From Brevundimonas sp. Leaf363 (lineage in GTDB: Bacteria > Pseudomonadota > Alphaproteobacteria > Caulobacterales > Caulobacteraceae), in contig NZ_LMPZ01000003.1 of the NCBI RefSeq assembly GCF_001424025.1, forward strand, positions 62,001-126,000: DNA of 64,000 nt, in the 5' to 3' direction. Below the pieces are notes generated by a model. The model saw only the letters and a list, made by a program, of their open reading frames with translations. It had not been told where the DNA came from and ran no database searches. This document shows positions 5,870 through 29,600 of this stretch, piece by piece. Numbering within the stretch: position 1 is the stretch's first letter; each line of letters starts with the position of its first letter. The position numbers were made by a program, and so were the translations under genes.

Positions 5870-7598
5870 ATGAACATCCAAGGATGGGCGGAAATCGCCC
5901 TGACCCTGACGCTGTCGGTGCTGATCGCCTGGCCGCTGGGGATCTACCTGTCGCGCGTCTGGAACGGCGAGCGGACCTGGCTGGACCCGGTGCTGAAGCC
6001 GGTCGAGGGCGTCTTCTACAAGGCGTCGGGGATCAACCCGGCGCGCAGCCAGGGCTGGGTCGGGTATGCGGGCGCCCTGCTGGCCTTCAACCTGGTCGGC
6101 TTCGTCGTGCTGTACGCCATGCTGCGTCTGCAGGGCGTGCTGCCGCTGAACCCGCAGGGGTTCGCCGGCGTATCGCCGCACCTGGCCTTCAACACCGCCG
6201 TCAGCTTCGTCACCAACACCAACTGGCAGAGCTATGGCGGCGAGACGACCATGTCGACGCTGACCCAGATGGTCGGCCTGACCACGCAGAACTTCCTCTC
6301 CGCCGCCACCGGCGCGGCCATCGCGGCGGCCTTGGCGCGGGCCTTCGTTGCCAATCGCGGCGAGGGGGTCGGCAACTTCTGGGCCGACATGACGCGCACC
6401 ACCCTCTATCTGCTGCTGCCCGCCGCCATCGTGCTGGCCGTCGTGCTGGCGGGTCTGGGCGTGGTGCAGAGCCTGGCCGCCTCGGCGACAGCGACGGGGC
6501 TGGAGGGCGGATCGCAGACCCTGCCGCTGTTCCCGGCCGCCAGCCAGGAAGCCATCAAGCAGCTGGGCATCAACGGCGGCGGCGTCTTCAACGCCAACTC
6601 GGCGCACCCGTTCGAGAATCCGTCGATCCTGACCAACCTGATCACATCCGTAGCGATCAATGTGCTGGGCTGGGCGGCCTTCTTCGCCTTCGGCCGCAGC
6701 GTCTTGGCCAAGCGCGATGTGCGGGCCCTGGTGGTCGCGGCCTTCGTGCTTTTGTTCACCTGCACGGCGGGAATGTACGTGGCCGAAAGCCAGCCGGCGC
6801 CGGCCCTGGTCGCCGCCCGGATCGAGCAGCCGGTGAATATGGAAGGCAAGGAGACACGCCTCGGCGTCCCGTCCTCCGTCGCCTGGGCCGGCCCCACGAC
6901 GGGCGCCTCCAACGGCTCGGTCAACTCGATGCATGGCAGCTATATGCCGCTGTCGGGCGGCATCCAGATGTTCCTGATGCAGCTGGGCGAGATCCTGCCG
7001 GGCGGCATCGGGTCGGGCATCGCCATCATGGTCGTCATGGCCATGCTGGCGGTCTTCGTGGCGGGCCTGATGGTCGGCCGCACGCCGGAGTATCTCGGCA
7101 AGAAGATCGAGGCGCGCGAAATCCAGTACGCCATGATCGCCGTGCTGGTGCTGCCGCTGGCCATCCTGGGCTTCACCGCCGTGGCCGTCGTCTTCCCGAC
7201 GGCGCTGGCGGGGCTGCTGAACGACGGACCGCATGGGCTGTCGGAGATGCTTTACGCCTACACCTCGGCGGCGGCGAACAACGGCTCGGCCTTCGCCGGC
7301 CTGACCGCCAATGCGCCCTGGTGGAACACGACGCTGGGCGTCGGCATGCTGATGGGGCGGTTCGTGCCGGCCATCGCCGTCCTGGCCATCGCCGGATCGC
7401 TGGTCGTCAAGCCCAAGCTGGCGCCGTCGACCGGCACACTGCCGACCCACGGGCCGTTGTTCATCGGCCTTCTGATCGGCGTCATCCTCATCCTGGGCGG
7501 GCTGCAGTTCTTCCCCGCCCTCGCGCTGGGACCCATCGTCGAGCATTTCCAGATGCTGGCCGATGCGGCCCCGGTCCTGATCGAACGGACCTCCGCCC

Positions 7599-7618
<20 letters not shown>
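5870..7618 (+). CDS. kdpA: K+-transporting ATPase subunit KdpA
   Basis: Channel-like K+-binding subunit of the KdpFABC pump, 582 residues, homologous to K+ channel/SKT proteins. Recognisable blocks are the N-terminal ISLRVW-like [16 protein letters not shown] region and the pore-loop-like [34 protein letters not shown] and [12 protein letters not shown] segments. These lie between about ten membrane helices. The 3' end overlaps kdpB by 20 bases, indicating translational coupling. Length and order match the family. Confidence 0.97.
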
Positions 7619-9659
<2,041 letters not shown>

Positions 9660-14127: not shown

Positions 14128-14844
14128 ATGACGAAGTCGGTCCTCAATTTCGACAGCCTTGCCGCGACCGAGCTTCAGCATGAGCCGTTCGATTGGGCGT
14201 TCGCAAATCGCCTCTACACAGCCGAGGACGCCGAGGTTCTGGCGCGGACCTATCCGGTCGATCACTACAAGTCGGTCGCTCGTCTTTCAGGCGGGGAGAA
14301 ATCCTACACCTATGAAGCGCGCCCGCTGATCCACATCGATTCGACCGATGTCGCATTCGAGGATCACCTCAGTGACACGTGGCGACAGTTGGCGCGCGAT
14401 CTGGCCTCGCCCGCCTACCGGACCGCCATGAGCCGGTTGACCGGTTTGGATTTGTCCACCGCGCCGATGGAGGCTTACGTCTGTCACTTCGGCCCCGGCG
14501 CCTGGCTGGGCCCGCACGCAGACCTGAAGACGAAAATCCTGACGCACGTCTTCTACTTCAACTCCGAATGGAGGGCTGAGGACGGCGGCTGCCTGCATGT
14601 GCTGCGGACGAAGAATGAAGACGACAAGGTGGATACGGTGCTGCCGCTCGTCGGCAATTCTTCGATCATCATGCGCTCCGACACGTCCTGGCACTCGGTG
14701 TCCAAGGTCGAGAGCGGCGCCACGGAGTCGCGGCGCAGCATGAATGTCATTTTCTACAACGGCGACCAACCCAGCTCCATGTGGCCGGACGGCGAGACGC
14801 CCAGCTTCCACGACTATCCGCCGCCCGCTGTCGCAGCCGAATAG
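14128..14844 (+). CDS. 2-oxoglutarate/Fe(II)-dependent oxygenase (prolyl-hydroxylase-like)
   Basis: A 238-residue protein with a double-stranded beta-helix iron site. The HxD pair is H130/D132 in LGPHADLKTKILTHVFYFN, the distal histidine is H189 in SWHSVSKV, and RRSMNVIFY supplies the likely 2-oxoglutarate-binding arginine. The pattern resembles prolyl 4-hydroxylase-type and PhyH-like oxygenases. It should hydroxylate or oxidise a small-molecule or peptide substrate using O2 and 2-oxoglutarate. It is convergent with the pyruvyl transferase gene (16 bases apart) and next to an NRPS-like operon, so a tailoring role there is plausible but unproven. The ribosome site is weak. Confidence 0.8.
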   Translation: MTKSVLNFDSLAATELQHEPFDWAFANRLYTAEDAEVLARTYPVDHYKSVARLSGGEKSYTYEARPLIHIDSTDVAFEDHLSDTWRQLARDLASPAYRTAMSRLTGLDLSTAPMEAYVCHFGPGAWLGPHADLKTKILTHVFYFNSEWRAEDGGCLHVLRTKNEDDKVDTVLPLVGNSSIIMRSDTSWHSVSKVESGATESRRSMNVIFYNGDQPSSMWPDGETPSFHDYPPPAVAAE

Positions 14845-14860
14845 GCCGGGCGGCGCGAAA

Positions 14861-15964
14861 TCAGACGGGCGAACCTCCGTCGAACAGACGCCTGACGCGC
14901 GTCCAGTGGGCGTGAACCGCCTGCATCGCCTCCCCCGGCGCCTGAGGCGCGTCTTCCCGCAACGCGCTCAACGCCCTGTTGAATCCAGCACGCCAGGTTT
15001 CCACGACATCGCAGGGGCGCGCCAGATGGTCGGCCATCCCCATGAACTTCGGAAGGCGCGGTTTGGCGACGAGCACGCCCCGCCGACCGTAACTGGCGCT
15101 GGCGATGAAGCCGTGCAGGGACGCGCCGACGAATACTTCGGAGAATGCGATGAGCGCTGTAATCTGACGCAGCCCGATCGGTGCGTCGAGGCAGAGATGC
15201 CGCTCCTGCATGGCCCCTGAAATGTCTCGCGCGATCTGATCGTCGGCATGGCAGAGCCCCAGCGGGAGCAGAACAGGCAGCAGGCCCGAGGTTCGCGCGA
15301 AGTCATCGATCTGGGCCGCCATCATGGACGCGTCTCCCTCCATCGACCGACGCTTGGCGTGAATGACGGCGTATCGGGTCTTGGGGTCGAGGCCGGCTGC
15401 GGTCAGCGTGTCCGCGAGCGTCTCCACCAACGTGTCGCGCGGCCACATCTCCGAGACGGCCAGCGCTGTGTCGGGAACGATATCGAACCGATGACCGTAC
15501 GATCCAAGGTGATCGCGAGACGCTTGTTCTCGGACGGATAGATAGTTGGCGTCACTGACGACCGGCGCGATGAGTGCTTCTAGCTCGTCCGCCGCAAACG
15601 GCACGGGGACGCCGGGCGCGTTCCAAGCCACGGGAATGCGCCGGGCGTTGGCGAAAGCGGCGGCGTCCGACCAAAGCGATCGATAGGCTCGCTCAGGCAG
15701 ACCGCTCTGCTGGTAGGCCGGAAGCCTGTCCTTCTTGCAGTGGATGATGTTGCCGCCGCCGATCAGCACGCCGTCGGCGTCGATGTCGCCGTAGTCGTCG
15801 ATGCTGATGACGCTCATGCATTCAGGCCACTGCGGACGCAGCGAGGTCGGGCTGACGGCGGTGATCGTGAAATCGCCACCCAAGGCGTGACGGGCCAGAA
15901 GAGGAAACAGAAGATCGCCGTAGTTCAGAACATCGAAGGTTCCGAAGAGGAGAATGTTTCGGAT
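14861..15964 (-). CDS. Polysaccharide pyruvyl transferase family protein; start codon missing or non-standard
   Basis: Family recognised from VLIGGGNIIH, the NAPGVPVPF block, SVREQASRDHL, VPDTALAVSE, FVGASLHGFIASASYG and the C-terminal HW motif. Such enzymes transfer pyruvyl ketals from PEP to sugars; close relatives (CsaB-type) act on cell-surface glycans. Family proteins begin with a strand like NILLFGTFDV followed by NYGDLLFP. Exactly this is encoded here upstream of 15883, but between the in-frame TGA and the next TTG (15883) there is no ATG, GTG or TTG. The most family-like first codon is ATC at 15964 (I-R-N-I-L-L-F). Using TTG 15883 would delete about 27 conserved N-terminal residues. 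Either a rare start is used or the start has been lost by mutation. Confidence 0.75.
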   Translation of the reverse strand: MRNILLFGTFDVLNYGDLLFPLLARHALGGDFTITAVSPTSLRPQWPECMSVISIDDYGDIDADGVLIGGGNIIHCKKDRLPAYQQSGLPERAYRSLWSDAAAFANARRIPVAWNAPGVPVPFAADELEALIAPVVSDANYLSVREQASRDHLGSYGHRFDIVPDTALAVSEMWPRDTLVETLADTLTAAGLDPKTRYAVIHAKRRSMEGDASMMAAQIDDFARTSGLLPVLLPLGLCHADDQIARDISGAMQERHLCLDAPIGLRQITALIAFSEVFVGASLHGFIASASYGRRGVLVAKPRLPKFMGMADHLARPCDVVETWRAGFNRALSALREDAPQAPGEAMQAVHAHWTRVRRLFDGGSPV

Positions 15965-16138
15965 CGCGGCGCCCTCGCGTCAGCAGATGGCAAATGACCT
16001 AAGGTGTTAAGATCGCGCGAAATAAGGTCCGCCAACGCGCGGGCTTGGGCATAGCAGCGCAGCGGGGTCGGAGCCAGCGCAAAGCCCCTTGCGGCTGTAG
16101 GCGGCCTCGTGCACGACGTCAGATTGGAGGGACTGACC

Positions 16139-18415
16139 GTGAGACACACTCGACGATCGAAGGCGCGCGCGTCGCGCTTCGACGCCTGGCGGTCAAGCTG
16201 TGCGGTCGGGCTCGCGGCCGCCTCCGTGGCGTCCGCCAATCCGGCGATCGCTGCGGACACGACCGATACGCTGGATGAGGTCATCGTCACGGCGCGGCGG
16301 ACCCAGGAGGCGGCGCGTTCCACCCCGATCGCGCTTGAAGTCGTCTCCGGGGCCGAGATCGCCGACGGGGGCGTCGGCGATCTGCAGGACGTGAGCTCAC
16401 GCGTGGCGTCACTGCAGACCAGCCAGGTCAGCCGCGACGAAGTCATCGTCAATATTCGGGGGCAAGGGCCCGGCGTCGGCGCCTTCCCCGGCGTGGTGAC
16501 CTACCTCAACGAGGCGCCTTTCCGTGGGCTGGGCCAGGGCCAGATGTTCGATCTGGCGTCAGTGCAGGTCCTGAAGGGACCGCAGGGCACGCTTTTCGGA
16601 CGCAACTCCAACGGGGGCGCCATCCTTCTGACGTCCCGGCCGGCCGAAGACGAGGTTTCGGCCTATCTGCGCGCCGAGGCGGGGGATTACGGGTCGAGAG
16701 GCTATCAAGCAGCGGTCAACGCGCCTCTGGTCGACGGGGTGCTGGCGCTCCGGCTGGCGGCTATGTCCGAACGCCGCGAGGGCTTTACGCGTGTCGCAGG
16801 CAGCGATTTGCGGTTGGACGACCGTGACGTGGCCGCCGCGCGCCTCAGCATACGGTGGACCCCGAGCTCCAGCCTACGCAACGATCTGGTCGTGGACGGG
16901 TCGCGCGTGGAGACCAGCGGCACGTCTGGAATTCTGACGGCGCTGAACCCGATCGGTCCCTTGGCCCTGCTCCCGCCCGAGACGGGTGTGGCCCAGGCCG
17001 CCTTTGGCCTGCTGGCGCAGCAAAAGGCGCTGGGCCCTCGCACCCAGGCCGGCCTGTCGGTCGATCCCCTGATGCGCGTCGAGCATTGGGGCGTCATGGA
17101 TCGGTTCGAGGCGCGACTGTCCGACCGCATGGTGTTCACCAACATCGCCTCCTTTCGGCGATATCAGAGACTACAGCGCAGCGATTACGACGGGACGCCC
17201 CTGCCGCTTCTGGATTTCGCCATCACGCCGGATGGATGGGATGCCGACCAGACCAGCGTCACGGAGGAAGCCCAGCTTCGCGCCGAGGCCGGCGACGTCG
17301 CCTACACCGTGGGGGCCTTCTATCAGGATGACAGCGCCGACGACGGCCAACGCCAGGTCGGGGTCATCTTCTTCCAGCCGATCCTGAGGATCGATCAGGC
17401 CCAGGATCGCAGCCAGGCGCTTTATGGCGAGGTGCGATGGGACGCCGACGCGCTTGTGCCAGGGCTTCAGCTCAGCGCCGGTTATCGGCACACCTGGGAT
17501 CGGCGCCGCCAGACCGCGGCCACCGTCAATCTGGTGACGGGCGCATGCTCGGGCGCCGGTGCGACGCCGCCCGGGTGTACGTTGCAGGACGAAGCCGAGT
17601 TCGACGCCGGCAACTGGAGCCTGGCCGGGACGTGGGAGCTGACGCCCGATGTCACGGCCTACGCCACGGCCCGACGTGGCTACAAGAGCGGCGGCCTCAA
17701 CCTGGGCCAGCCGTTCGCCGACCGGCGGCGCTACGAACCGGAGTATCTGACGGACGTGGAGATCGGGCTGAAAGGTCGCGCGCAACTGGCGAGCGACATC
17801 ACCCTGACCTATGCGATCGACGCCTATCGCGGGGACTATCGCGACGTCCAGATCAACGCCTTGGTCGCCGACGGGGCCGCCATCTACAACATCGTCGAGA
17901 ACGGGGCCGAGGCCACGATTCAGGGCATCGATGTCGACGGCGTGCTCGCGATGGGCCCCGTCGCTCTGAGGCTAGCCTATGCCTACACAGACGCCGCCTA
18001 CGACACCTATTCGTCGGCGATCTACGGGGATCTCTCGGATTCTCCCTGGCCCTACACGTCGCGAAACAAGGGGGTCGTGGGTGTCGATTGGCGCCTGCCG
18101 GAGTGGCGATCCGTCGCGCAGCCGGTGGCCTCGCTGAGCTACGCGTTCCAGAGCGGCTCGACCTTTGGCTATGAAATCGATCCGGAGACGCATGAGCCGG
18201 GGTACGGGTTGCTGGACGTGCTTGTGGAGTTGCGCAATCTGGCCGGCCGCCCCGTGGACCTCGCATTCTTCGCCACCAATGTGACGGACGAAGTCTACCG
18301 GACCGGTGTCATCGGCCTCTACAACACCCTTGGCCTGGATACCTCGGTCTATGGCGAACCCAGAATGATCGGCGCGCGGCTGACGGCGCGGTTCGGCGCG
18401 GACGCCGCCCGATGA
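16139..18415 (+). CDS. TonB-dependent outer-membrane receptor
   Basis: About 758 residues. The GTG at 16139 is preferred over GTG 16109 because GGAGGG lies seven bases before it. A signal peptide (RRSKARASRFDAW..., cleaved near AIAADTTD) is followed by the plug domain: DEVIVTARR (TonB-box-like), SRVASLQTS, VLKGPQGTLFGRNSNGGAI. The beta-barrel ends with a C-terminal phenylalanine/arginine-rich strand. It imports a siderophore-like or other ligand in a TonB/ExbBD-dependent manner. It is the first gene of a five-gene operon with four-base overlaps, and the next gene is an adenylation enzyme. It therefore probably handles the molecule made, modified or used by this operon. It diverges from the pyruvyl transferase gene. 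Confidence 0.93.
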   Translation: MRHTRRSKARASRFDAWRSSCAVGLAAASVASANPAIAADTTDTLDEVIVTARRTQEAARSTPIALEVVSGAEIADGGVGDLQDVSSRVASLQTSQVSRDEVIVNIRGQGPGVGAFPGVVTYLNEAPFRGLGQGQMFDLASVQVLKGPQGTLFGRNSNGGAILLTSRPAEDEVSAYLRAEAGDYGSRGYQAAVNAPLVDGVLALRLAAMSERREGFTRVAGSDLRLDDRDVAAARLSIRWTPSSSLRNDLVVDGSRVETSGTSGILTALNPIGPLALLPPETGVAQAAFGLLAQQKALGPRTQAGLSVDPLMRVEHWGVMDRFEARLSDRMVFTNIASFRRYQRLQRSDYDGTPLPLLDFAITPDGWDADQTSVTEEAQLRAEAGDVAYTVGAFYQDDSADDGQRQVGVIFFQPILRIDQAQDRSQALYGEVRWDADALVPGLQLSAGYRHTWDRRRQTAATVNLVTGACSGAGATPPGCTLQDEAEFDAGNWSLAGTWELTPDVTAYATARRGYKSGGLNLGQPFADRRRYEPEYLTDVEIGLKGRAQLASDITLTYAIDAYRGDYRDVQINALVADGAAIYNIVENGAEATIQGIDVDGVLAMGPVALRLAYAYTDAAYDTYSSAIYGDLSDSPWPYTSRNKGVVGVDWRLPEWRSVAQPVASLSYAFQSGSTFGYEIDPETHEPGYGLLDVLVELRNLAGRPVDLAFFATNVTDEVYRTGVIGLYNTLGLDTSVYGEPRMIGARLTARFGADAAR

Positions 18416-20331
18416 GCACCCTGCCCCTCGACGGCTGGCTTACGGAGCCGCCCGTTCAACCCGACGCCAACGGGCCGGAGGACGTCCCCTTCGAGCCGTT
18501 CGACGCCCGCTGGATGCAGGCGACGCCGATCGAGCGGTTCGACTACATGGCCGAGCGTTACGCAGACCGGATCGCGGTCGATGACGGCGTCACGCGCCTG
18601 ACCTACGCCCAGGTGGCCAGGAAGGCCCGGGCGCTGGCTCAAAGGATCGATGCCGAGGCGCCGCCTGGACCGCTGGTCGGCGTGTTCCGGTACACCGCCC
18701 TAGTGCCGATCGTCATGATGGCGGCGCTGGCGACCGGACGCACGCTGATCCCGGTGGACGCCCTGCATCCCCAGGACCGCCAGCAGGCCATTCTGCGCAA
18801 CGCCGGCGCCGCCGCCCTGCTTCTGCAAACGGGCGTGGAGATCGATACGGTGCTGCCCGACCTGCCGCGCCTGGATATCGACCTGAACGCGCTGGACGAC
18901 GGCGAATGGCCCGTCGGCACGCTTAACATGCAGGGTGTGGCAGGCATCATCTACACGTCCGGCAGCACCGGAAATCCGAAGGGCCTGGCCTGGGGATTGG
19001 CGGGATTCACGCCCTACATCGGCACGCGCACCAATACGCTTCACCTGAATCCCGACGACCGGATCATCGCCTTGGGCTCCCTCTCGTCCGCGGGGCTCGG
19101 GGACGCGGTGTTCGCCTTGATGAACGGCGCGACACTGCGGATTGTCGAAATCATGCAAGCCGGCGTCGGCGAACTTCTGAGGATCATGGGCGAGGAGAAG
19201 GTCACGATCCTCAGCTTCGTCCCGACGATCCTGAGGTCCATCCTGCAGATGGACGAGGCGCCGGCGGCGTTCCGACACTTACGGATCCTCGAACTCTACG
19301 GCGACGCGACCCTGGCCAACGACGTGGCCTTCTTCCGAACCAAGTTGCCGGCCGACTGTCACATCCGGCTGGTGCTCGGAACGATGGAGTCTGGCGAGAT
19401 CTTCAGCTGGTTCGTGCCGAAGGACTGGAACGAGGCGGCCATGACGCTGCCATGCGGGTACGTCACGCCCGGCCGGTCGGTGGCCGTTCTCGATGACGAG
19501 GGCCGCCCGACGCCCGTGGGGGAGATCGGCAATGTGGTCATCCGTAGCCGTCAGATGGCCCTGGGCGCCTGGCAAGACGGACGATTGACGCCGGGCCCGT
19601 TCCTGACGGCGCCGGACGATCCCGAAAGCCGTGTCTACACACCGGGTGACCAGGTCAGAATCCGACACGACGGCCTGGCCGAATTCATCGGTCGGGTCGA
19701 TCGCCAGGTGAAGGTTCGCGGCATGCGCGCGGACCTTGGCGAGATCGAGGCCGCGCTGCGACAGCATCCCGACGTCGCCGATGTCGCGGTGGTCGCCGTC
19801 GCCCACCCGGACGATACCGAGATCGTCGCCTACATCACCGTCCATCGGCCCGACACGCCGCCATCGGCCTCCGACCTGAGAGCCACCGTCGTGGCCGAGA
19901 CGGCCGAGCACATGGCCCCGTCGCGCATCTTCGCCCTCGACGCCATTCCACGGCTTCCGAACTACAAGCCCGATCTGGTGCGCCTGTCGCAACAGGCGCA
20001 GCGCGATCTCGACCGCGGCGTCATCCCGACGCGTCCGGCGTCCCAAGACCTGGAGCCGGAAGTCGTCAGCGCCGTGGAGCAGGCCTGGGCCGCGACGCTG
20101 AGGGACCGCGCGGAACCCGGTCTGTCGTGGGAATCCTCCGGCGGCGACTCGCTTGAGGAACTGCAGCTGATCCACCGGATCGAGGTGGCGCTCGGCTATG
20201 AGCTCAACGTGCCGATCGAGGGCGATTTCACAGTCATCGACCTGGCGCGAGCCGTCGGCGACGCCATCACCGCCGGCGCAAAACCCCTTTCGCCCGACGA
20301 CCGGGTAGCCTTCCAGGACCTTGAAATATGA
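18412..20331 (+). CDS. NRPS-like adenylation domain with C-terminal carrier domain
   Basis: A 639-residue A-PCP didomain. Adenylation motifs: A3 YTSGSTGNPKG, A5-like LVLGTMESGE, A7 YTPGDQVRI, A8 GRVDRQVKVRGMRADLGEIE, and A10 lysine in PRLPNYKPD. The carrier site is S580 in SGGDSLEELQL, which should be phosphopantetheinylated. There is no condensation or thioesterase domain. The A4 region reads SLSSAGLGDAVFALMNGA. The aspartate that grips the alpha-amino group in ordinary amino-acid adenylation domains (FDxS) is replaced by serine, so the substrate may be a non-amino acid. It would load an acyl group on its own carrier for a partner enzyme. It overlaps the TonB receptor gene by four bases and the SCP2-like gene by four. 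Confidence 0.92.
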   Translation: MSTLPLDGWLTEPPVQPDANGPEDVPFEPFDARWMQATPIERFDYMAERYADRIAVDDGVTRLTYAQVARKARALAQRIDAEAPPGPLVGVFRYTALVPIVMMAALATGRTLIPVDALHPQDRQQAILRNAGAAALLLQTGVEIDTVLPDLPRLDIDLNALDDGEWPVGTLNMQGVAGIIYTSGSTGNPKGLAWGLAGFTPYIGTRTNTLHLNPDDRIIALGSLSSAGLGDAVFALMNGATLRIVEIMQAGVGELLRIMGEEKVTILSFVPTILRSILQMDEAPAAFRHLRILELYGDATLANDVAFFRTKLPADCHIRLVLGTMESGEIFSWFVPKDWNEAAMTLPCGYVTPGRSVAVLDDEGRPTPVGEIGNVVIRSRQMALGAWQDGRLTPGPFLTAPDDPESRVYTPGDQVRIRHDGLAEFIGRVDRQVKVRGMRADLGEIEAALRQHPDVADVAVVAVAHPDDTEIVAYITVHRPDTPPSASDLRATVVAETAEHMAPSRIFALDAIPRLPNYKPDLVRLSQQAQRDLDRGVIPTRPASQDLEPEVVSAVEQAWAATLRDRAEPGLSWESSGGDSLEELQLIHRIEVALGYELNVPIEGDFTVIDLARAVGDAITAGAKPLSPDDRVAFQDLEI

Positions 20332-20627
20332 CGTTCGACGAGATGACCCAGAAGCTGGCCGCCGCCGCCGCCGCTGAGCCCGGCAATGCCAAGTCCCTCA
20401 AGCTCGACATGGGCGACGCGGGCGTCATCCGCATCGCCGGCGCGGTGGTCGACAACCAGGACATCCCGAGCGATTGCACCGTCAGGGTCAGCAAGGACGA
20501 TTTCGAGAAGATCGTGCAGGGCGACCTTGATCCCACCTTCGCCTTCATGAGCGGCAAGCTGCGCGTCGATGGCGACATCGGCGTCGCCATGGGACTGCAG
20601 GCCGTCGTGGGTCGCGCCTTTGGCTGA
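20328..20627 (+). CDS. SCP2 sterol-binding-domain-like small protein
   Basis: A 99-residue single-domain protein resembling SCP2/sterol-carrier domains. It has a polar N-terminal helix (MTFDEMTQKLAAAAAAEP), alternating strands (GVIRIAGAVVDNQ, CTVRVSKDDF) and the typical DPTFAFMSGKLRVDGDIGVAMGLQ segment, which matches the G-K-x-x-x-G-D block of SCP2 proteins. SCP2 domains bind lipids or acyl groups in a hydrophobic tunnel. In this operon it may present or shield a hydrophobic intermediate. Starts within the stop of the adenylation gene and overlaps the next gene. Confidence 0.82.
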   Translation: MTFDEMTQKLAAAAAAEPGNAKSLKLDMGDAGVIRIAGAVVDNQDIPSDCTVRVSKDDFEKIVQGDLDPTFAFMSGKLRVDGDIGVAMGLQAVVGRAFG

Positions 20628-21822
20628 CGGTGGTTTCGGTGGCGCACGCGGACGACGGCTGATCGACGGCCTGACGCGCTATGTCGAGCGGGGCGAGATA
20701 CCCGGCGCGCTGGCCCTGGTGCGCCATCGCGATGAAGAGGTGCTGTTCGCACAGATCGGCAAGGCCGCCGATGAACACGATCATCCGATCGCGCGCGATA
20801 CCCTGTTCCGCATCGGCTCCATGACCAAGCCGATCGTCACCGCCGCGGCCATGACCCTGGTGGAAGAGGGAAGACTGCGGTTGTCGGACCGGGTCTCCCA
20901 GTGGCTGCCCGAACTGGCCGCGCCCAAGGTCCTGCCGTCGCCGGGCGCCAAGCTTTCCGAGGCTGTCCGCGCGCCGCGCCCCATCACGGTCGAGGACCTG
21001 TTGCTGCACCTCCCGGGCTTCGCCACCGCCCTGGTCGCCCAAGGCGATCTCGGCCAGGCGGTCCAGGTCTTGACCGCAGGTCTCGCTCAGCGCGCGGACA
21101 TGGAGCCTGACGCATGGATGAAGGCGCTGGGCGAACTGCCGCTGGCAAGGGCGCCGGGCGAAGAGGTCATCAACGGCTTCGCCACCGATGTCCTCGGGGT
21201 CCTGCTGTCGCGGCTGACCGGAAAGTCTCTGCCCGACCTTCTGAAATCGCGCATCCTCGATCCGCTCGGCATGGCGGACACCGACTTCTGGGCGCCGCCG
21301 GAAAAGGCGGGGCGCCTGTGCCCGGCCTATGTCGTCCAGTGGCTGTCTGGCAAACGCAAGGTCGTGGACGACCCCGCGAACAGCGCCTTCACCCGACAAC
21401 CGGCCTTTCCCTCGGGCTCCGGCGGGCTGGTCTCGTCCCTGGACGACTACACGGCGTTCGGCCGGATGATGCTGAACGGCGGTGAGCTCGACGGCCGGCG
21501 GGTCCTGTCGCGCGCATCTGTCCGTTTGATGACGACCAACTTCCTGACGCCCGAACAGCGCGCGCTTCCATTCTTCGGCTACCCATACTGGGCGGATCGG
21601 GGCCTCGGTCTGGGCCTATACGTGCTCGACGATCTGTCCAGGCATCGAGGGCTGGGCCGCGAAGGGCAGTACGGTTGGGGCGGCGCTTTCGCGACCACCT
21701 GGTTCAACGACCCGGCCGAGAACCTGACAGCGGTGCTGATGACCCAAGTGGCCTTCGCGGCGGTGATCCCCAACATCCGCGCCGACTTCGAGACGCTGGT
21801 TTACCAGGCGATCGACGCATGA
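20620..21822 (+). CDS. Serine hydrolase of the beta-lactamase/esterase (class C-like) family
   Basis: About 400 residues. The nucleophile motif SxxK is SMTK (S67, K70 with the TTG start at 20620) in RIGSMTKPIV. The family signature downstream is normally Y-S-x-x-x-D-V-L-G; here it reads N-G-F-A-T-D-V-L-G, so the usual base tyrosine is asparagine (N185). The C-terminal GWGGAFATTWFNDP block matches the H/KxG-type region of EstB/LovD relatives. Such proteins hydrolyse esters or transfer acyl groups (LovD type). No N-terminal signal is evident, so a cytoplasmic role on a carrier-bound substrate is possible. The start is uncertain: TTG 20620 overlaps the SCP2-like gene by eight bases, ATG 20569 by more. 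Ends in an ATGA junction with the next gene. Confidence 0.85.
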   Translation: MADGGFGGARGRRLIDGLTRYVERGEIPGALALVRHRDEEVLFAQIGKAADEHDHPIARDTLFRIGSMTKPIVTAAAMTLVEEGRLRLSDRVSQWLPELAAPKVLPSPGAKLSEAVRAPRPITVEDLLLHLPGFATALVAQGDLGQAVQVLTAGLAQRADMEPDAWMKALGELPLARAPGEEVINGFATDVLGVLLSRLTGKSLPDLLKSRILDPLGMADTDFWAPPEKAGRLCPAYVVQWLSGKRKVVDDPANSAFTRQPAFPSGSGGLVSSLDDYTAFGRMMLNGGELDGRRVLSRASVRLMTTNFLTPEQRALPFFGYPYWADRGLGLGLYVLDDLSRHRGLGREGQYGWGGAFATTWFNDPAENLTAVLMTQVAFAAVIPNIRADFETLVYQAIDA

Positions 21823-23012
21823 GCGCGCGGCTGGACGCGATCGGTATCGCGAGACACGTCCTGGAGGCCTCCGCCAGCGGAGGATCGATCGACCCCGGCG
21901 CCGCGCCCGCCATGACGTGGGCCTCCGCCCTCGAAGGCTTGATGCAGGCCGGGCAGCAGGACGCCGTAAGGCATGTGCTGCCGGCGCTGAGGCAGCATTT
22001 CCAGTCCCGATACTTCAGAAACCTGGACATCCGCCTGCGACAGGATCCTGAGCACGACGTCGGGCCGATCATTCTGGAAGAAGCTGCAGCGCGCATGCGC
22101 GAGTCCGAGGCGACGGAGCAGCCGCTGCGCGTTGACGGCATAAGGCCCGCCGTCTGGGCCGCGGCGATGGAGCGCCAGCTCGGCAAGGCGCGCCTGAGCG
22201 TGCTGGCGGACAATGTCGCTGTCTTGCGCTCCGCCTTCCCGACCGTCGCCTATTTCAGCAGCCTGGATGCGTTGCTTCAGCGCATCGCCGCCGTCGACCG
22301 GCGCGAACTCGAAATACGATCGGATTTCGTCAAAGTCGGCCGTGCGGGCGAAGCGGACACGGTGCTGTTCGTCTTCACCGTCACACCGGCCATGCGGTGT
22401 GGGGTGCCGCGGCAGATCCTGAACCGGCTGCTGTCGCGCTTGCCTGTCCACATCGTTTATCTGGCCGAGCCGAAGCCGGCGTTCTTCATGCGAGGGGTGC
22501 CGGGACTGGGCCCGGACTACCCGACCGTGCTCCAGGGCTTGAAAGATCTCGCCTCCGAGCTGGGCGCTTCCCGGATTCTGACGCTCGGGGCATCGCGCTC
22601 TGGCTATCCCGCGCTGCGGTTCGCGCTCGATCTCGGTGCAGAGGCAAGCCTGGTGTTCGGCGCCATGACCCACCTTTCGGACCGGACGCGGATCCTGGCC
22701 CAGAACTACGCCGCCGAGCACGAGATGGCGGTGGATCCCGAAGAACTGGCCGGTATCGACCTGAAGCCGCGATTGGCCGAAGCCGCCCAAGCGCCTCGAA
22801 TGACGCTCGTTTACGGCGCCGCCGACAGCATAAACCGGGACGAGGCTCTGCGGCTTGAAGAGATGACGAATGTCACCTGCGAGGCTTTGCCCGGAGGCCA
22901 TAACGCTCTGCTGACGGCCGTTCTGACGGATCGCTTCGACCCCCTGCTCGACGATCTCGTTCGAGGATCGTCTCAGGCCAAGACGACCGCCGGCCAGTCG
23001 CCTGCGCCCTAG
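21819..23012 (+). CDS. Alpha/beta-hydrolase-like protein with long N-terminal extension
   Basis: 397 residues. The C-terminal half looks like an alpha/beta hydrolase: nucleophile-type motif LGASRSGYPAL (G-x-S-x-x-G, S259), acid candidate in VYGAADSIN, and histidine in LPGGHNAL. The N-terminal half (about 1-200) is helical and unrecognised. It contains SALEGLMQAGQQDAVRHVLPALRQHF, and a start like SARLDAIGIARHVLEA. The G-x-S-x-x-G arrangement resembles atypical hydrolases of glycan and secretion clusters. It is the last gene of the operon, starting in the stop of the SxxK hydrolase. It may release or transfer the product of the carrier protein; this is inferred from position. Confidence 0.68.
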   Translation: MSARLDAIGIARHVLEASASGGSIDPGAAPAMTWASALEGLMQAGQQDAVRHVLPALRQHFQSRYFRNLDIRLRQDPEHDVGPIILEEAAARMRESEATEQPLRVDGIRPAVWAAAMERQLGKARLSVLADNVAVLRSAFPTVAYFSSLDALLQRIAAVDRRELEIRSDFVKVGRAGEADTVLFVFTVTPAMRCGVPRQILNRLLSRLPVHIVYLAEPKPAFFMRGVPGLGPDYPTVLQGLKDLASELGASRILTLGASRSGYPALRFALDLGAEASLVFGAMTHLSDRTRILAQNYAAEHEMAVDPEELAGIDLKPRLAEAAQAPRMTLVYGAADSINRDEALRLEEMTNVTCEALPGGHNALLTAVLTDRFDPLLDDLVRGSSQAKTTAGQSPAP

Positions 23013-23213
23013 CCTTGCATATGCCGAAGGTACGCATCCCGTCCGCAATGGCGTGCTCTCGAACTGTCCCCCCGCCTTCACCCCCACCACATTGGCGGCT
23101 CTTTCAGGGATACCGGGCGCCCCATCCATCGCGGCGAAGGCCATTCACAAGCCGCCCAGCCTAAGCCATGCCCCTCTGCCGGAACGCGTTCGTCTGACGA
23201 GCCGACTGGTCCC

Positions 23214-23459
23214 ATGAATGTCAGACGAGTGATCCTCGACCTCCTCGCACGGCGTCCTGCCGGCGGTACGCTTTGCCCCAGCGAGGTCGCTCGCGTGCTG
23301 GCGGATCAGTCTGGCGCTCCGTCCGAATGGCGCGCTCAGATGACCCCTGTGCATCAGGCGATCGACCAGATGGCGGCGGACGGCGAGGTGGGCCTGAGCT
23401 GGAAAGGCCGAGACCTGGCGGTTCGGAGCGGGCCGTACCGCATTCGATCGCCGCGCTGA
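23214..23459 (+). CDS. DUF3253 domain-containing protein
   Basis: An 81-residue protein. The pattern VRRVILDLLARRPAGGTLCPSEVAR, then WRAQMTPVHQAIDQMAADGEV and a closing GPYRIRSPR matches the DUF3253 family, a small predicted winged-helix-like protein of unknown function often found near DNA-repair or photolyase genes. It lies alone between the NRPS-like operon (201-bp gap) and the DUF3182 gene (94-bp gap). Confidence 0.8.
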   Translation: MNVRRVILDLLARRPAGGTLCPSEVARVLADQSGAPSEWRAQMTPVHQAIDQMAADGEVGLSWKGRDLAVRSGPYRIRSPR

Positions 23460-23553
23460 GCTCGCCCGGCCGTTAGGTGGAAGAAACGCCCTGAGACTTG
23501 AACCCGCCGCCCTCCCCGGGGTTAGGCCATCGTCAGGTAACTCGGGGGCCGAC

Positions 23554-24699
23554 ATGATCTCTCTGGACCACGTCGGCATCGCGCCCGTGCCGTCTTTCAC
23601 CAACGGCTTTCCCCTCGCCGGCATCGCGCTGTTCGATCCTGACGGTCACAGCCCCGGCAATCTTCATGACCAGCACTCTCGCGAGATGCTGGTCATGCGC
23701 CTGTCGACGCTGCTGCGGGTGCCGCTGCTGGGGTCCGTGATGGATGCGGACGACGTGGGCCCGGACGTCCTGCTCGTCCCGCGCGACACCCTGATCGACG
23801 AAACGATGACGTCGAAGACGAAGTTGACGATCGGCACCTTGCTGGGAGGCCAGGTCCCCTATCGCTTCGCCGCGACCAAGGCGATCACGCACGGTCTGAT
23901 CGACGCGGACGCGGTGCGTCCGGCCGGATGGTCTTCATCGATGGCCGAACGACTGGGGGATGCCGCCCTGGAGGGCTACACGGCCTTCACCGCCGAGGAT
24001 GCGATCGAAGCGGGCCGCCGGCTTCTGCGCAGCGGCCCTGCCCGCGTGAAGGAAGTGTGCGCACGGGCCAGCCTGGGCCAGACCGTGGTCGAGAACGACG
24101 CCCAGCTGGTTGCCGTGATCGAACAGCAGGACCCGCGTGTCCTGGCCGATTTCGGGATCGTCATCGAGGAGAACCTGATCGACCCGGAAACCTACAGCGT
24201 CGGATCGCTCTCCGTCGCCGGACTGGAGATCAGCTACGTCGGCGACCAGCGCGAAACGACCGACCACAAGAACCGGGCCGTTTACGGCGGCTCACGCCTG
24301 CGCTCAGTGCGCGGCGGGCTCGATCGGCTGACGCACCTGGGGCTGGACACCGAAGCGGTGGAGGCCATCCGGTGCGCCGCCGTCTTCGACGACGCCGCCA
24401 GGCGCGCCTATCCGTCCATGGTGCTGACCCGCCGGAACTATGACGTCATCGCGGGACGGGATGCGCGGGGTCAGCGACGCGTCGGCGTGCTGGAACAGTC
24501 GTGGCGCGTGGGCGGGGCCACCGGCGCGGAGATCGCCGCCCTGGAGGCGTTCGCCCGGTCTCCGGAACTGACCTCGGTCAATACGGCGACGGTCGAGGTG
24601 TACGGCATCGCAGAGACGCCGCAGGACGCCGTGATCTACTTCAAGGGGACCGACCCGGTGGTCGGCCCGATGACGAAATACGCGACGAGGACGGCGTGA
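23554..24699 (+). CDS. DUF3182 family protein (ATP-grasp-like)
   Basis: 381 residues. Recognised as DUF3182 from blocks such as TKLTIGTLLGGQVPYRFAATKAITHGL, the basic-acidic VKEVCARASLGQTVV segment, LIDPETYSVGSLSVAGLEISYVGDQ and SMVLTRRNYDVIAG. Members look like ATP-grasp ligases, but the reaction is not known to me. The stop overlaps the GTG start of the next gene (GTGA). That gene, an alpha/beta hydrolase, is therefore its probable functional partner: one may form a bond and the other cut it. Confidence 0.78.
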   Translation: MISLDHVGIAPVPSFTNGFPLAGIALFDPDGHSPGNLHDQHSREMLVMRLSTLLRVPLLGSVMDADDVGPDVLLVPRDTLIDETMTSKTKLTIGTLLGGQVPYRFAATKAITHGLIDADAVRPAGWSSSMAERLGDAALEGYTAFTAEDAIEAGRRLLRSGPARVKEVCARASLGQTVVENDAQLVAVIEQQDPRVLADFGIVIEENLIDPETYSVGSLSVAGLEISYVGDQRETTDHKNRAVYGGSRLRSVRGGLDRLTHLGLDTEAVEAIRCAAVFDDAARRAYPSMVLTRRNYDVIAGRDARGQRRVGVLEQSWRVGGATGAEIAALEAFARSPELTSVNTATVEVYGIAETPQDAVIYFKGTDPVVGPMTKYATRTA

Positions 24700-25454
24700 A
24701 CGATGCGCTCGACGTCGACGAAGGCCGGGTCGATCTGGCCGTCGACGGACAAAGACTGACCGGCACCCTGCTCCAGCCCGAAGCGCCGGTGCCGGGTCTG
24801 TTGTTTGTGCATGGTTGGGGTGGGGACCAGGAGGAAGATCTCGGCCATGCGGAAGAGCTCGCCCGGCTGGGCTGCGTCTGCTTCACCTTCGACCTGAGAG
24901 GCCATGCCGGAAGCGAGGCCCGTCAGGACGAGGTGACCCGCGAGGATGGACTGAACGACGTCAAGACCGCCTATGACTACCTGGCGTCCCAGCCCTTGAT
25001 CGACCCGTCCGCGATCGGCGTCATCGGCACGAGCTACGGCGGCTATCTCTCGGCCCTCCTGACCAAGGAAAGGCGCGTGCGCTGGCTGGCCCTGCGCGTC
25101 CCCGCGCTCTACCCGGACGCTGACTGGAACGTGCCGAAGGCCAAGCTGAACAAGGAAGAGGTCGCCGCCTACCGCAAACAGATCCGCTCGCCCGAAGACG
25201 ACAGGACGCTCGCCGCCTGCGCTGCGTTCGACGGCGACGTTCTGATCGTCGAGTCAGGGCAGGATGACCGCATCCCGCCAGAGACGATCCAGTCGTATCA
25301 GGCGGCGTTCAAGCGAGCGCGTTCGTTCACGCACCGCATCATCCCGGACGCATCGCACGCGATGCGCGATCCCGCGGATCAGAGGATCTACTCAACGATC
25401 CTGATCAACTGGGTTGAGGAAATGGTTCGTTCCAGCCGCCGGGCCTATCGCTGA
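24696..25454 (+). CDS. Alpha/beta hydrolase (dienelactone-hydrolase/prolyl-oligopeptidase-like)
   Basis: 252 residues from GTG 24696. Core features: LLFVHGWGGDQ (oxyanion HGxGG-type), FDLRGHAGS, the nucleophile elbow GTSYGGYLSAL, the acid in VESGQDDRIPPE and the histidine in IIPDASHAMRDP. There is no signal peptide. Start chosen because GTG overlaps the upstream stop by four bases and the conserved fold begins shortly after. Substrate unknown; co-expression with the DUF3182 protein is the main clue. Confidence 0.85.
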   Translation: MNDALDVDEGRVDLAVDGQRLTGTLLQPEAPVPGLLFVHGWGGDQEEDLGHAEELARLGCVCFTFDLRGHAGSEARQDEVTREDGLNDVKTAYDYLASQPLIDPSAIGVIGTSYGGYLSALLTKERRVRWLALRVPALYPDADWNVPKAKLNKEEVAAYRKQIRSPEDDRTLAACAAFDGDVLIVESGQDDRIPPETIQSYQAAFKRARSFTHRIIPDASHAMRDPADQRIYSTILINWVEEMVRSSRRAYR

Positions 25455-25493
25455 CGACGGCGGTCTGCTCGGCCGACGAGGCCTTTCGAAGTC

Positions 25494-26480
25494 TCACCCG
25501 CCAGGCAACGCCACCGACCGTGGCCAACTCAGCCGGGCCGCCGAGCCGGGCGTGCTGGGCGTGATCGACCATTCGCCGCCCAGCTGGCGGCTCAGCGCCA
25601 GGATGATCTTCAGCCCCAGGCTCTGCGGCGCATCGTGATCCCGAGACACGCCGATTCCATCGTCGCTGACGACCAGAACGCGGGACGGACCATCGTTTTC
25701 AAGACGGATGACGATGTGCCCCGGACGGTCCGGGAAGGCGTGTTCCAGCGCGTTGTTCACGCATTCGAGCATGATCAGAATGACAGGCGTCGCCTCCTCT
25801 GCGGACAGGGGTGCGCCGTCGCCCGAGACCGTCAGCCCGACGTCATCGCGCGCCGCGGCCTTCAGCGCATCTTCTGCGACGGCCCGGGCCAGGGACTCGA
25901 AGGCCGTCAGATTGGTCTCGGCCTCGGCGAGGCTTCGCTGGATGCGGGCGATCAGGGCCGTGCGAGCCGAGGCGTCGGCCAGCGCCTTGCGCGCCCCGGC
26001 GTCGGTGGCGCCGCGCGCCTCGATGCTCAGCAGGGCGCTGACGACCTGAATGTTGTTGGAGACGCGGTGCTGCACCTCCTTCATCAGGATGTCGCGGCTG
26101 GTGGCCAGGGCGGCGTTGCGCTCGACTTCTTGCGCCAATCGGCGTGACGCGTCGTCCATCCCCACGATGAAGAAGATGTCGATGGCCACGACGAAGACAT
26201 AGAAGGCGATCGCGACAAGGGTCGCCACGCCGAAGTCGAAACCGGTCGGCCCAATCCAGAACCACCAGGCCGACAATCCCGACAGCGTGGCGGTCAGCAG
26301 CGCCGGACGCAGGCCGGCGTAGAAGGCGACCAACACCACGGCCGGGAAGAACGTCAGATACGGAAAGCCGGGCGGAAACACGTGCGCCAGGCCATATCGC
26401 ACCGCGAAGGCTACGCCCCAGGCGACGATGGCCAAGGCAAAGCCCCGCACGGCGGATTGACGGAAGGTGTCTCGATGCAT
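25494..26480 (-). CDS. Sensor histidine kinase, HisKA_2/HWE type, with membrane sensor domain
   Basis: About 328 residues. N-terminal membrane segments (about 10-110: FALAIVAWGVAFAVRYGLAHV, PYLTFFPAVVLVAFYAGLRPALL, with WWFWIGP) form a DUF4118-like region similar to that in KdpD. The phospho-acceptor motif is MKEVQHRVSNNIQVVSALLSIEARG, the HisKA_2 pattern, followed by ECVNNALEHAFPD and SDDGIGV, SLGLKIILALSRQLGG. Kinases of this class signal in light and general stress pathways of alphaproteobacteria. No response regulator lies next to it. The start is uncertain: ATG 26480 begins just before the conserved helices, ATG 26564 would add 28 residues. Confidence 0.85.
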   Translation of the reverse strand: MHRDTFRQSAVRGFALAIVAWGVAFAVRYGLAHVFPPGFPYLTFFPAVVLVAFYAGLRPALLTATLSGLSAWWFWIGPTGFDFGVATLVAIAFYVFVVAIDIFFIVGMDDASRRLAQEVERNAALATSRDILMKEVQHRVSNNIQVVSALLSIEARGATDAGARKALADASARTALIARIQRSLAEAETNLTAFESLARAVAEDALKAAARDDVGLTVSGDGAPLSAEEATPVILIMLECVNNALEHAFPDRPGHIVIRLENDGPSRVLVVSDDGIGVSRDHDAPQSLGLKIILALSRQLGGEWSITPSTPGSAARLSWPRSVALPGG

Positions 26481-26695
26481 GACAGCCCACAGCGCGGCGT
26501 GGCTGTTGCCGTCTTTATCCGTGGCCGCCCCATCAATGTCCAGCGTTCGGCGGCCGCGGCCCATAGACCGCCCCAACGTCACACAAATCCCACTATAAAT
26601 CAGGTGATTATGTCGGACGCCCGACCCATGGCGCGGGTGGTCATGTCGTTGAACCCGATGTCGGCTCGCGGATTGGAGATGCCGAAGGGACATTC

Positions 26696-29600
26696 ATGGC
26701 AACCCAATCGACTTCGACCGTCACGGGCCAGCAGGCTCTTGTCGACGGACCCGCACCGATCGAAGAACCGGCGCGCCGGGGGCACGCGCCGTCCAGCGCC
26801 GTGGCGGCGCGACTGGCAGCCCTGGATCGCACGGATGACGCCCCGATCCTGTTCGTGGCCTCCAGCGAACGTCGTGCCGATGAGATCGCCAGCGCCCTGG
26901 GCGCATTGAGCGATCCGGATCAGGACGAGGTGCTGGTGCTGCCGCCTTGGGATTGCCTGCCCTACGACCGGGCGCGGCCGTCGCGCGAAAGCATGGGACG
27001 ACGCATGGCGGTCCTGGCGGCCCTGGGCGAACCGTCGCCGCGCCGGCGCCTGCTGGTTGCGTGCCCCGAAGCCCTGATGCAGCGGACGCCGCCGGCCAGG
27101 GCCGTAGCCGCCCGGTTCGACCTGGAGGTCGGCGCCCGGATCGATCGCGGCGCGCTGGAGGCGTTCGCCCTGCGCACCGGCTATGTGGTGGACGAACGGA
27201 TCGACGAACCGGGCGAGATCGCTGTCCTGGGCGCCGTCATCGACGTCTTCCCGCCCGCAGAAGCGACGCCGTTCCGCATCGGCATGTCGGACGACGACAC
27301 GGTCACCGACATCAAGCGCTTCGATCCCGTCAGCCAAAGGACCGAAGCGGACGTAGCGGCCATCCGGCTGACCCCGGCCTCTGAGCTTGTGCTCAAGCAG
27401 GCGGAGGACGTCGACGCCCTGCCCGACGCCGCCGAGCATCGTCTGGCGCAACACTACCGCTCCCTGTCATCGGCCTTCGACTTCGAGGGCAAGGCCCGCA
27501 TACTGACCGACGACGGCCTGAGCGAGCGGATCGCGCGTTTCGCCGATCAGGTGAATGAGGCCTACCGCACCCGCGTCAGCTTCGACGGTGGCGAGCGGCC
27601 GCTGGAGCCCGGTCGGCTTTATCTGACCGCCCAGGAGATGGGCGAACGTCTGGCGCAGGCCATCCCGCTGGATGTCGCGGGCGTGCGACCGGCGCCGTCC
27701 TTCGCGGCTGAACGGTCGCCGGCCAAGGCGGTGAAGGCCTTCATTCAGGACCGCCGCGACGCGGGCCATGCGGTGGTCATCACCGGCCTGGCGCACGAGC
27801 AGCGGATCGTCTCGCGGATGCTGAAGCGCAGCGGCGTCGAGGCGCCGGTGCATGTCGATCGGTGGGCCGAGGTCGGCGCCACGCCCTCTTCCCTCGTCAG
27901 CCTGGAGGCCGATCTGGACGCTGGCTTCGATGATCGCCAGGCGAAGGTGACGGTCATTGCGCCGTCCGACATTACCGGAGGGCGCATCGCCCGCCGGCGC
28001 GAGACGACGACGGACGCCTTCGGCGAGACCGAGATTCGCGTCGGCGACGTGGTCATCCATGAGGACCACGGGCTGGGCGTCCTGCAGGCGCTCGAGCGGA
28101 TCGAGGCCGATGGCGTGGAGCGCGACGTTCTGCGGCTGGAGTATCACGGCGGCGCCACCATCCTGGCGCCCATCGAGGAGTTCGGCCGCATCTGGCGATA
28201 CGGCTCGGAACCCTCGGCCGTGACCCTGGACCGCCTGAACACCCAGGGCTGGCAGAAGCGCCGGGCGGAAGTGAGCGCCCAGATCGACGCCGCGGCGGCG
28301 GCCTTGGTCGCGGCGGCGAAGGAGCGAGACGCCAAGGTCGCGAGCGCCATCATACCTCCCGCCGCCGCCTATGCGCGCTTCTCCGCCGGCTTTCCCTTCC
28401 CGGAATCGGTCGACCAGTCCGCCGCCATCAACGACGTCCTCAACGACCTGGCGGCCGGCAAGCCGATGAACCGGCTGGTGTGCGGCGACGTCGGCTTCGG
28501 CAAGACGGAGGTCGCCCTGCGCGCCGCGGCCGCCGTGGCGCTGTCGGGTCGCCAGGTGCTGATCTCCGCGCCGACCACCGTCCTGGCGCGACAGCACTTC
28601 GAGGTGTTCCGCCGTCGCTTCGAGGGGACCGGCGTCGGGGTCGGCCATCTGTCGCGCGCCGTGGATCGCGCGGAAACCGCGGCGGTGAAGGCCGGGCTGG
28701 CCGACGGCTCGATCCGGATCGTCGTCGGCACCCAGGCTCTGGCGTCCGATGATCTGGACTTTGCCGATCTGGCCTTGGCGATCATCGACGAGGAGCATCG
28801 TTTCGGCGCCGCCATGAAGACGCAGATCGCGGCGCGGGCGCCGCATCTGCTGCTGCTGTCGGCCACGCCGATCCCCCGGACGCTGCAGGGCGCCATGGTG
28901 GGGATCCAGGACGTCAGCATCATCGCCAGCCCGCCCGCCCGGCGGCGCCCGATCCGTACCTTCTTGGCGCCGTTCGATCCCGGCTCGATGCGCTTGGCGC
29001 TAATGCGGGAGAAGGCGCGGGACGGCCAAAGCTTCGTGGTCGCGCCCCGGATCGAGGATCTGCAGCCGCTGGCGCAGCAGCTCGCCAGCCTGACGCCCGA
29101 GCTGAAGGTGGTGATCGCCCACGGCAAGCTGCCGGCCGACGAGATGGATCGGGTAATGACGGGGTTCGCCGGCGGGGACGGGGATGTCCTGCTGGCGACC
29201 AACATCATCGAGAACGGGCTGGACGTGCCCATGGCCAACACCATGCTGATCTGGCGGCCCGACCGCTTCGGATTGGCGCAGCTGCACCAGTTGCGCGGCC
29301 GGGTCGGCCGGGGACGTCGCCAGGGCTTCACCTATCTGCTGTCCGATCCAGAGGCACCGCTGGCGGAGAACACACAGGCGCGGCTGCACACGCTCGAGGC
29401 GCTGGACCGCCTGGGGTCGGGCTTCGCCATCAGCGCGCGCGACCTGGACCTGCGGGGCGGCGGCGACCTGGTCGGCGACGAACAGGCGGGCCACATCCGG
29501 CTGATCGGATCGGCCCTCTATCAGCGTGTTCTGGCCCGTGCGCTTCGCCTGGCGCGCGGCGAACCCGCCATCGACGCCGCGCCGCCGAAACTGAGCCTCG

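Follow-up and report, generated by a model that had tools for sequence, protein, structure and literature searches.

A possible carrier-protein-based biosynthetic island with a TonB-dependent receptor and a pyruvyltransferase-linked hydrolase in Brevundimonas sp. Leaf363

Genes at the locus

The window analysed here is a 64,000-nt stretch of Brevundimonas sp. Leaf363 (NZ_LMPZ01000003.1, 62,001-126,000), and coordinates are window positions unless another locus is named. Seven genes at 14128-23012 are tentatively read as a small biosynthetic island, in which a lone adenylation-peptidyl carrier protein (A-PCP) didomain would be served by a separate hydrolase-like protein, abH, and by a pyruvyltransferase-type enzyme, pyrT. 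The five genes at 16139-23012 overlap by 4 (receptor/A-PCP), 4 (A-PCP/SCP2), 8 (SCP2/SxxK) and 4 (SxxK/abH) bases; the gene calls and overlaps were re-checked, which bore out the original prediction of five genes overlapping by four to eight bases. The seven genes are as follows.

14128-14844, + strand: 2-oxoglutarate (2OG)-Fe(II) oxygenase, 238 amino acids (aa); PF13640 2OG-FeII_Oxy_3 4e-10, PDB 9ei6 3e-25
14861-15964, - strand: pyrT, pyruvyltransferase-type enzyme; PS_pyruv_trans 3.7e-17 with extended N-terminus (2e-15 for the canonical open reading frame, ORF)
16139-18415, + strand: TonB-dependent outer-membrane receptor; GTG start 16139, alternative GTG 16109; Plug 7e-11, TonB barrel 2e-28
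18412-20331, + strand: A-PCP didomain, 639 aa, carrier Ser580; AMP-binding (PF00501) 1e-43, AMP-binding_C (PF13193) 3e-12
20328-20627, + strand: SCP2-like protein, 99 aa; Pfam SCP2 2.8e-14
20620-21822, + strand: SxxK (beta-lactamase/family VIII esterase-like) protein; TTG start 20620; Pfam Beta-lactamase 4e-53
21819-23012, + strand: abH, probable alpha/beta-hydrolase, 397 aa; ATG start 21819; motif alignment and low-confidence model, no Pfam match

Pfam backs the family label of every island gene apart from abH. The labels given in the original prediction (TonB receptor, A-PCP, SCP2, SxxK, oxygenase and pyruvyl transferase) were thus matched, and the alpha/beta-hydrolase stays a probable assignment.

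Carrier didomain, candidate release enzyme and pyruvyltransferase

The A-PCP retains the P-loop motif, the A10 Lys (LPNYK at 515) and the C-terminal subdomain; the catalytic A10 Lys and this subdomain are the features by which adenylation (A) domains of nonribosomal peptide synthetases (NRPS) are recognised. Its carrier motif, GGDSL with Ser580, aligns with the LgrA carrier domain, but the PF00550 carrier model fails E 0.01 in the window protein though four relatives pass it. Two phosphopantetheinyl-transferase-family matches are present in the genome. In amino-acid-activating A domains, Asp235 holds the alpha-amine. At the position equivalent to Asp235 of GrsA, alignments of the A-PCP differ, showing Ser, Ala or a gap, and because none places an Asp there an ordinary alpha-amino acid seems an unlikely substrate. 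All four relatives tested by Pfam are A-PCP-thioesterase proteins (4/4). Alphaproteobacterial proteins of this kind, for example those of Bradyrhizobium elkanii (WP_018273690), Mesorhizobium japonicum (WP_010916077) and the genomes G048 and G455, are 31-38% identical to the A-PCP along most of its length. Their thioesterase is fused, and relatives of the other island genes are missing nearby, except for a receptor in G048. The window A-PCP ends after the carrier and has no fused thioesterase; therefore, release should come from another protein.

Release or transfer of the carrier-bound acyl group is the predicted role that fits abH best, on the basis of its carrier-protein neighbours, and abH is a better candidate for release than the SxxK protein. 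A glycan may be the acceptor in a transfer. In four of ten testable loci (L036, L038, L070 and L072), the abH relative is immediately preceded by a stand-alone carrier-protein ORF. Eleven loci were examined, L042 being excluded from the count with only 71 bases upstream; of the four, the two from Azospirillum are closely related. The carrier ORF of L070 is annotated as an acyl carrier protein. Even when E values up to 1 are admitted, abH itself matches no Pfam profile, thioesterases included. Its N-terminal part is helical, and an alignment of seven sequences, the window copy among them, shows no variation at Ser259, the candidate nucleophile, or at His361. A model built from two sequences (pLDDT only 58) gave a best VIA Z of 14.2 (rmsd 3.6, 203 aligned) to alpha/beta-hydrolases; many generic esterases were returned, and no family stands out.

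Some surroundings of abH relatives are recorded here in their own right. At L036 (9375-12577), the relative is lined up with genes for a small carrier protein, a GSP_synth enzyme and a 232-aa protein that matches nothing in Pfam at 0.01. On an Azospirillum plasmid, L070 (6252-8603) holds a weak ATP-grasp-like protein, the acyl carrier protein and the abH relative, followed by type I secretion genes. The host genome also holds a second, distant abH paralogue (34%; G000:C2:214397-214945, L043), which lies, as judged by eye, downstream of acyl-CoA dehydrogenase-like genes and has no carrier motif upstream.

The SxxK protein (residues numbered from TTG 20620) aligns over its full length with family VIII-type esterases, the closest being 7pp3 at 1.3e-62, and retains Ser67-Met-Thr-Lys70 and the WGG motif. 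In the PGxxWxYS motif of family VIII esterases, the Tyr is listed among the catalytic residues in the excerpted text of PMC8399190. The SxxK protein reads PGEEVING at this place, with Asn185 opposite the catalytic Tyr in five of five alignments (7pp3, 4ivi, 7uda, 7u1b and Est-Y29). Because Asn replaces the catalytic Tyr, the LovD-like transfer or release first proposed for this enzyme is weakened, and on this evidence the protein should be classed neither as a functional family VIII esterase nor as LovD-like.

A link between abH and pyrT comes from a single contig. Relatives of abH were found in 6 of 384 genomes of the class Alphaproteobacteria and those of pyrT in 2 of 371, own genome excluded (7/385 and 3/372 with it included). 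Own genome aside, pyrT and abH find their best matches, at 41% and 35% respectively (the latter nearly tied with one in G281), on a single G345 contig, L034, which is identical to L060 (JANQKE010000167.1, 13.2 kb) of the alphaproteobacterial metagenome-assembled genome PL25a_bin.146. Here a frame of 1009 aa with no internal stop (6302-9331) joins TPR repeats, an abH region and a pyruvyltransferase domain. The neighbours of this fusion are an AMP-binding enzyme with a carrier domain, a ketosynthase, a methyltransferase, a second pyruvyltransferase and two PhyH dioxygenases, and the locus is a polyketide-type cluster. Because abH and pyrT relatives are both rare in class genomes, their chance meeting in one ORF is unlikely, although no formal test was applied. 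pyrT is 43% and 40% identical to two L060 proteins. In view of the fusion, pyrT probably belongs with abH and participates in the system instead of being a chance neighbour, though encoded on the opposite strand. Its earlier description as a flanking gene holds for its position outside the overlaps, while its tie to the system is now stronger. Hydroxylase, pyruvyltransferase, carrier-protein and abH types recur together in the window and in L034/L060, and this recurrence suggests the chemistry of the island.

The pyrT frame runs upstream past its first ATG/GTG/TTG codon (TTG 15883) into FGTFDVLNYGD, an N-terminal motif conserved in relatives, and no ATG, GTG or TTG lies between this motif and the upstream in-frame stop. 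Including the N-terminal extension raises the Pfam score from 57.8 to 63.6 bits (curated PS_pyruv_trans cut-off 25.3). The true start probably lies near 15955-15964 on a non-canonical codon (ATC 15964 or ATT 15955), or the start codon has been lost. A pyrT model (pLDDT only 62.6) matched UDP-GlcNAc 2-epimerases and glycosyltransferases, which we take to be GT-B folds, with VIA Z 15.2-18.0 and rmsd 4.4-5.5 over 293-318 aligned residues. No pyruvyltransferase entry is among the best 50 rows of either fold comparison, and a sequence comparison of pyrT with PDB gave no match at E 1.

HxD...H is the iron site of 2OG-Fe(II) oxygenases; it is present in the island oxygenase as H130-x-D132...H189, together with Arg202/203. 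The title of its PDB match 9ei6 is 'Prolyl 4-hydroxylase alpha subunit domain-containing protein', and the PDB codes of the match led to no relevant paper in the literature. The SCP2-like protein is ordinary in sequence, scoring 53.7 bits against a profile cut-off of 21.3 and matching PDB 2c0l at 1.4e-9, and a paralogue 45% identical to it lies elsewhere in the host genome. The receptor scores 82.6 bits against the NCBIfam siderophore receptor model TIGR01783, well under the cut-off of 223.5.

Proposed pathway and rival explanations

With a probability of roughly 0.4, the seven genes form a small biosynthetic island in which an acid is loaded, hydroxylated, pyruvylated, released via abH and recaptured via the receptor. 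The original reading is partly supported: its view of a biosynthetic gene set built on a carrier protein, with additional enzymes, holds. Gene order, motifs, rarity among the sampled genomes and one abH-pyruvyltransferase fusion are observed here, and from them we infer the substrate, the chemistry, the order of the steps and the roles of the SCP2, SxxK and receptor proteins as follows. To judge from its family, the A-PCP would activate a single carboxylic acid, which is probably something other than an ordinary alpha-amino acid, and tether it to Ser580. The 2OG oxygenase may then hydroxylate the tethered or released acid, and pyrT would add a pyruvyl group derived from phosphoenolpyruvate (PEP) as a ketal on a diol, if its chemistry resembles that of the enzyme DxpH described below. 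Next, abH would release or transfer the acyl group, replacing the fused thioesterase of the related A-PCP proteins. SCP2 may hold a hydrophobic intermediate, and the SxxK protein may bind rather than hydrolyse, or catalyse differently. Finally, the receptor might return the product, or a complex of the product, into the cell, a role suggested by the operon overlap only. A more specific version deserves little credence for now: a receptor-coupled minimal pathway in which a non-amino acid, loaded by the single A-PCP, would undergo hydroxylation and pyruvyl ketalisation and then be freed by a new hydrolase family paired with the pyruvyltransferase. Its product would be a small anionic ligand, possibly metal-binding, that serves as a signal or nutrient and is recaptured by the co-transcribed receptor.

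NikQ is presumably the oxidising member of the NikP1/NikQ/NikP2 load-oxidise-release system of nikkomycin. In that pathway, a separate thioesterase frees the oxidised acid from the A-PCP didomain, according to the excerpted text of PMC4147253. The window resembles NikP1/NikP2, as far as that text describes them, in combining an A-PCP didomain with a separate candidate releasing enzyme. Unlike the Nik system, its A domain is without Asp235, its oxygenase is of the 2OG-Fe(II) type, abH has no thioesterase-profile match, and a pyruvyltransferase and a receptor are added. For the tailoring step, DxpH was reported in 2026 to use PEP in vitro to form a ketal on a lipopeptide of NRPS origin (PMC12964715, in excerpt), and ChtnH, which comes from that strain and is probably identical to DxpH, is called a putative pyruvyltransferase in part of PMC13291983. 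As in the DxpH and ChtnH clusters, so far as those excerpts go, a pyruvyltransferase would here tailor a carrier-protein-derived product outside polysaccharide synthesis. This likeness is drawn by description, and the DxpH sequence was not compared. Unlike those clusters, which comprise a polyunsaturated fatty acid (PUFA) synthase and a multimodular NRPS, the window has a single A-PCP with no condensation domain or ketosynthase, plus the receptor, SCP2, SxxK and abH; neither a PUFA synthase nor a modular NRPS is among ten Pfam-tested proteins at 14128-26693. L034/L060 is similar to the window in its abH and pyrT relatives and carrier protein, and has two dioxygenases, whereas its AMP-binding-carrier enzyme is of another kind and comes with a ketosynthase and a methyltransferase, and its 13.2 kb hold no SCP2, SxxK or receptor relative. 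By analogy, the island would unite the ideas of separate release and pyruvyl tailoring in one-module form, with a receptor added. The literature searched yielded no named pathway with this gene set, in line with the original statement, nor any paper joining SCP2 with an adenylation domain and a receptor or SCP2 with a gene cluster; for the receptor with Brevundimonas or with an A-T didomain, titles and abstract beginnings held nothing on point.

If this reading is true, pyruvyl tailoring, which the excerpt of PMC12964715 describes in vitro on a lipopeptide, would be extended to a one-module system. A concrete partner would also be named, namely a Pfam-less hydrolase-like family that is fused with a pyruvyltransferase on one contig and recurs behind carrier proteins. 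Should the receptor take up the product, the seven genes would form a make-and-retrieve system of very small size. Concrete, testable points are the abH-pyruvyltransferase pair and the SxxK protein that lacks the Tyr.

Several observations weigh against such a pathway. The 2OG gene and pyrT both lie upstream of the five-gene run and outside its overlaps, with pyrT on the opposite strand; Pfam finds no condensation domain, exporter or regulator among the seven genes; and the abH-pyruvyltransferase fusion is a single case on a metagenome-assembled contig. The missing canonical start codon of pyrT could be a sign of decay. Moreover, a ChtnH-related pyruvyltransferase is proposed, in the excerpt of PMC13291983, to form an ester rather than a ketal in the megapolipeptin pathway, so that the bond made by pyrT cannot be read from its family. 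No relative of SCP2, SxxK, abH, pyrT or 2OG is present in any of 13 A-PCP-relative loci (tblastn, E 1e-3; L096, of 3.4 kb, was omitted and L098 is only 5.6 kb long). Among the A-PCP-relative loci, L094, L095 and L097 nearly duplicate one another, L091 and L092 are from a single genome, and L065, L066, L069 and L098 may be ordinary NRPS. The absence of SCP2, SxxK and abH relatives from all 13 formally contradicts the co-conservation of the five genes expected under the original prediction; with no second set found, this failure reflects a shortage of comparison cases as much as a separation of the genes. In 2 of the 13 loci, a receptor gene accompanies an A-PCP-thioesterase gene: the two are adjacent in G048, a genome of the same genus, and lie about 3 kb apart in G104. 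Because the genomes concerned are rich in receptors (39 plug matches in the 3.4 Mb of G048), this pairing is weak evidence, suggestive at most. Sulfotransferase genes lie beside two abH relatives, L035 and L071, and the L071 locus is annotated with capsule and Kdo genes, a context that fits glycan decoration equally well.

In this last explanation, which we consider rather unlikely, the A-PCP and abH would acylate a cell-surface sugar that is also pyruvylated by pyrT, the receptor being an unrelated or glycan-uptake neighbour. Besides the sulfotransferase and capsule contexts, it draws on the Pfam family of pyrT, which is named for polysaccharide work, on the G048 A-PCP-thioesterase relative, which by eye sits amid sugar-transferase- and glycosyltransferase-like genes, and on the capsule O-acetyltransferase 6yuq among the abH fold matches, albeit at rank 48 only. 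However, the seven island genes include no glycosyltransferase, flippase or sugar-nucleotide gene, and the fusion locus L034 is polyketide-type, with no such gene among its seven proteins tested by Pfam.

Uptake and breakdown centred on the receptor is an unlikely alternative, in which a hydrophobic ester would be imported and cleaved by abH or SxxK, and its acid activated by the A-PCP and carried by SCP2. The receptor is the first gene of the operon, the SxxK sequence is closest to esterases and SCP2 is a lipid-binding family, all of which suit such a role; yet the adenylation enzyme is carrier-fused and not a plain CoA ligase, the pyruvyltransferase is tied to abH, no beta-oxidation gene is among the seven, and the esterase Tyr is lost in the SxxK protein. 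A chance assembly of acquired, partly decaying genes, only some of which act together, would suit the accessory region, the pyrT frame without a canonical start, the lost SxxK Tyr and the absence of the set from every other locus examined, but is improbable given four consecutive 4-8 base overlaps, long intact frames and conserved motifs in A-PCP, abH and 2OG.

Genomic setting and rarity

The proposed island is rare and is most simply read as accessory and probably acquired. Besides the window, the five genes together were not found at any locus examined. An abH match of any kind occurs in 9 of 131 genus genomes, those beyond the host genome being all partial and weak (E 3.9e-7 to 8.4e-4), and a clear ortholog is confined to the host's own (1/131). 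The A-PCP is matched at E 1e-40 or better in 9 of 299 genomes of the order, own included, with the others at 29-33% identity, and at 1e-50 in 10 of 367 genomes of the class, own included, the best other being 38% identical. Among plasmid records, A-PCP matches number 1802, all below 60% identity; abH is matched in 3 and the receptor in 263, with 31.7% the best among the matches listed. Because a collection of 84,980 genomes was searched with nothing but narrow patterns, failure to find relatives in it counts for little: the stretch of the A-PCP that follows the ATP motif gave 70 pattern matches with no relative among them, and the two-member abH alignment gave 77 with one relative, the L034 contig already known.

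The host genome measures 3.13 Mb. Six island ORFs have a GC of 0.664 and a third-position GC of 0.815, against 0.687 and 0.870 in the other called window ORFs, a comparison in which SCP2 was too short for the ORF list and some comparison ORFs may be false calls. In three relatives, the region that follows kdpE contained no island gene at E 1e-20; kdpD is present at 1e-60 in only 6 of 26 genomes, own included, and hence no clean empty site was defined. Consensus scans returned one promoter-like and one terminator-like site, compared with 1.1 and 4.4 in shuffles, and upstream of the receptor a single 11-base inverted repeat, 82% complementary, was the only element of its kind. No PADLOC defence model matched at E 0.001 any of the six island proteins queried, the receptor not being in the query set.

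Some A-PCP-thioesterase genes lie near a set of Asn_synthase, PqqD and NTP_transf_5 genes (G455, L091 8942-16380; on the same contig in G048, L067/L068), which recalls lasso-peptide clusters. Just downstream of the island, a DUF3182 gene and an S9-type alpha/beta-hydrolase occupy 23554-25454, DUF3182 being found in 1 of 26 genomes, the host's own. They are followed at 26696-30001 by an Mfd-like protein of 1101 aa (TRCF, CarD and DEAD domains), which has about 39% identity to its counterpart in G008 of the same genus and may be a divergent or second copy.

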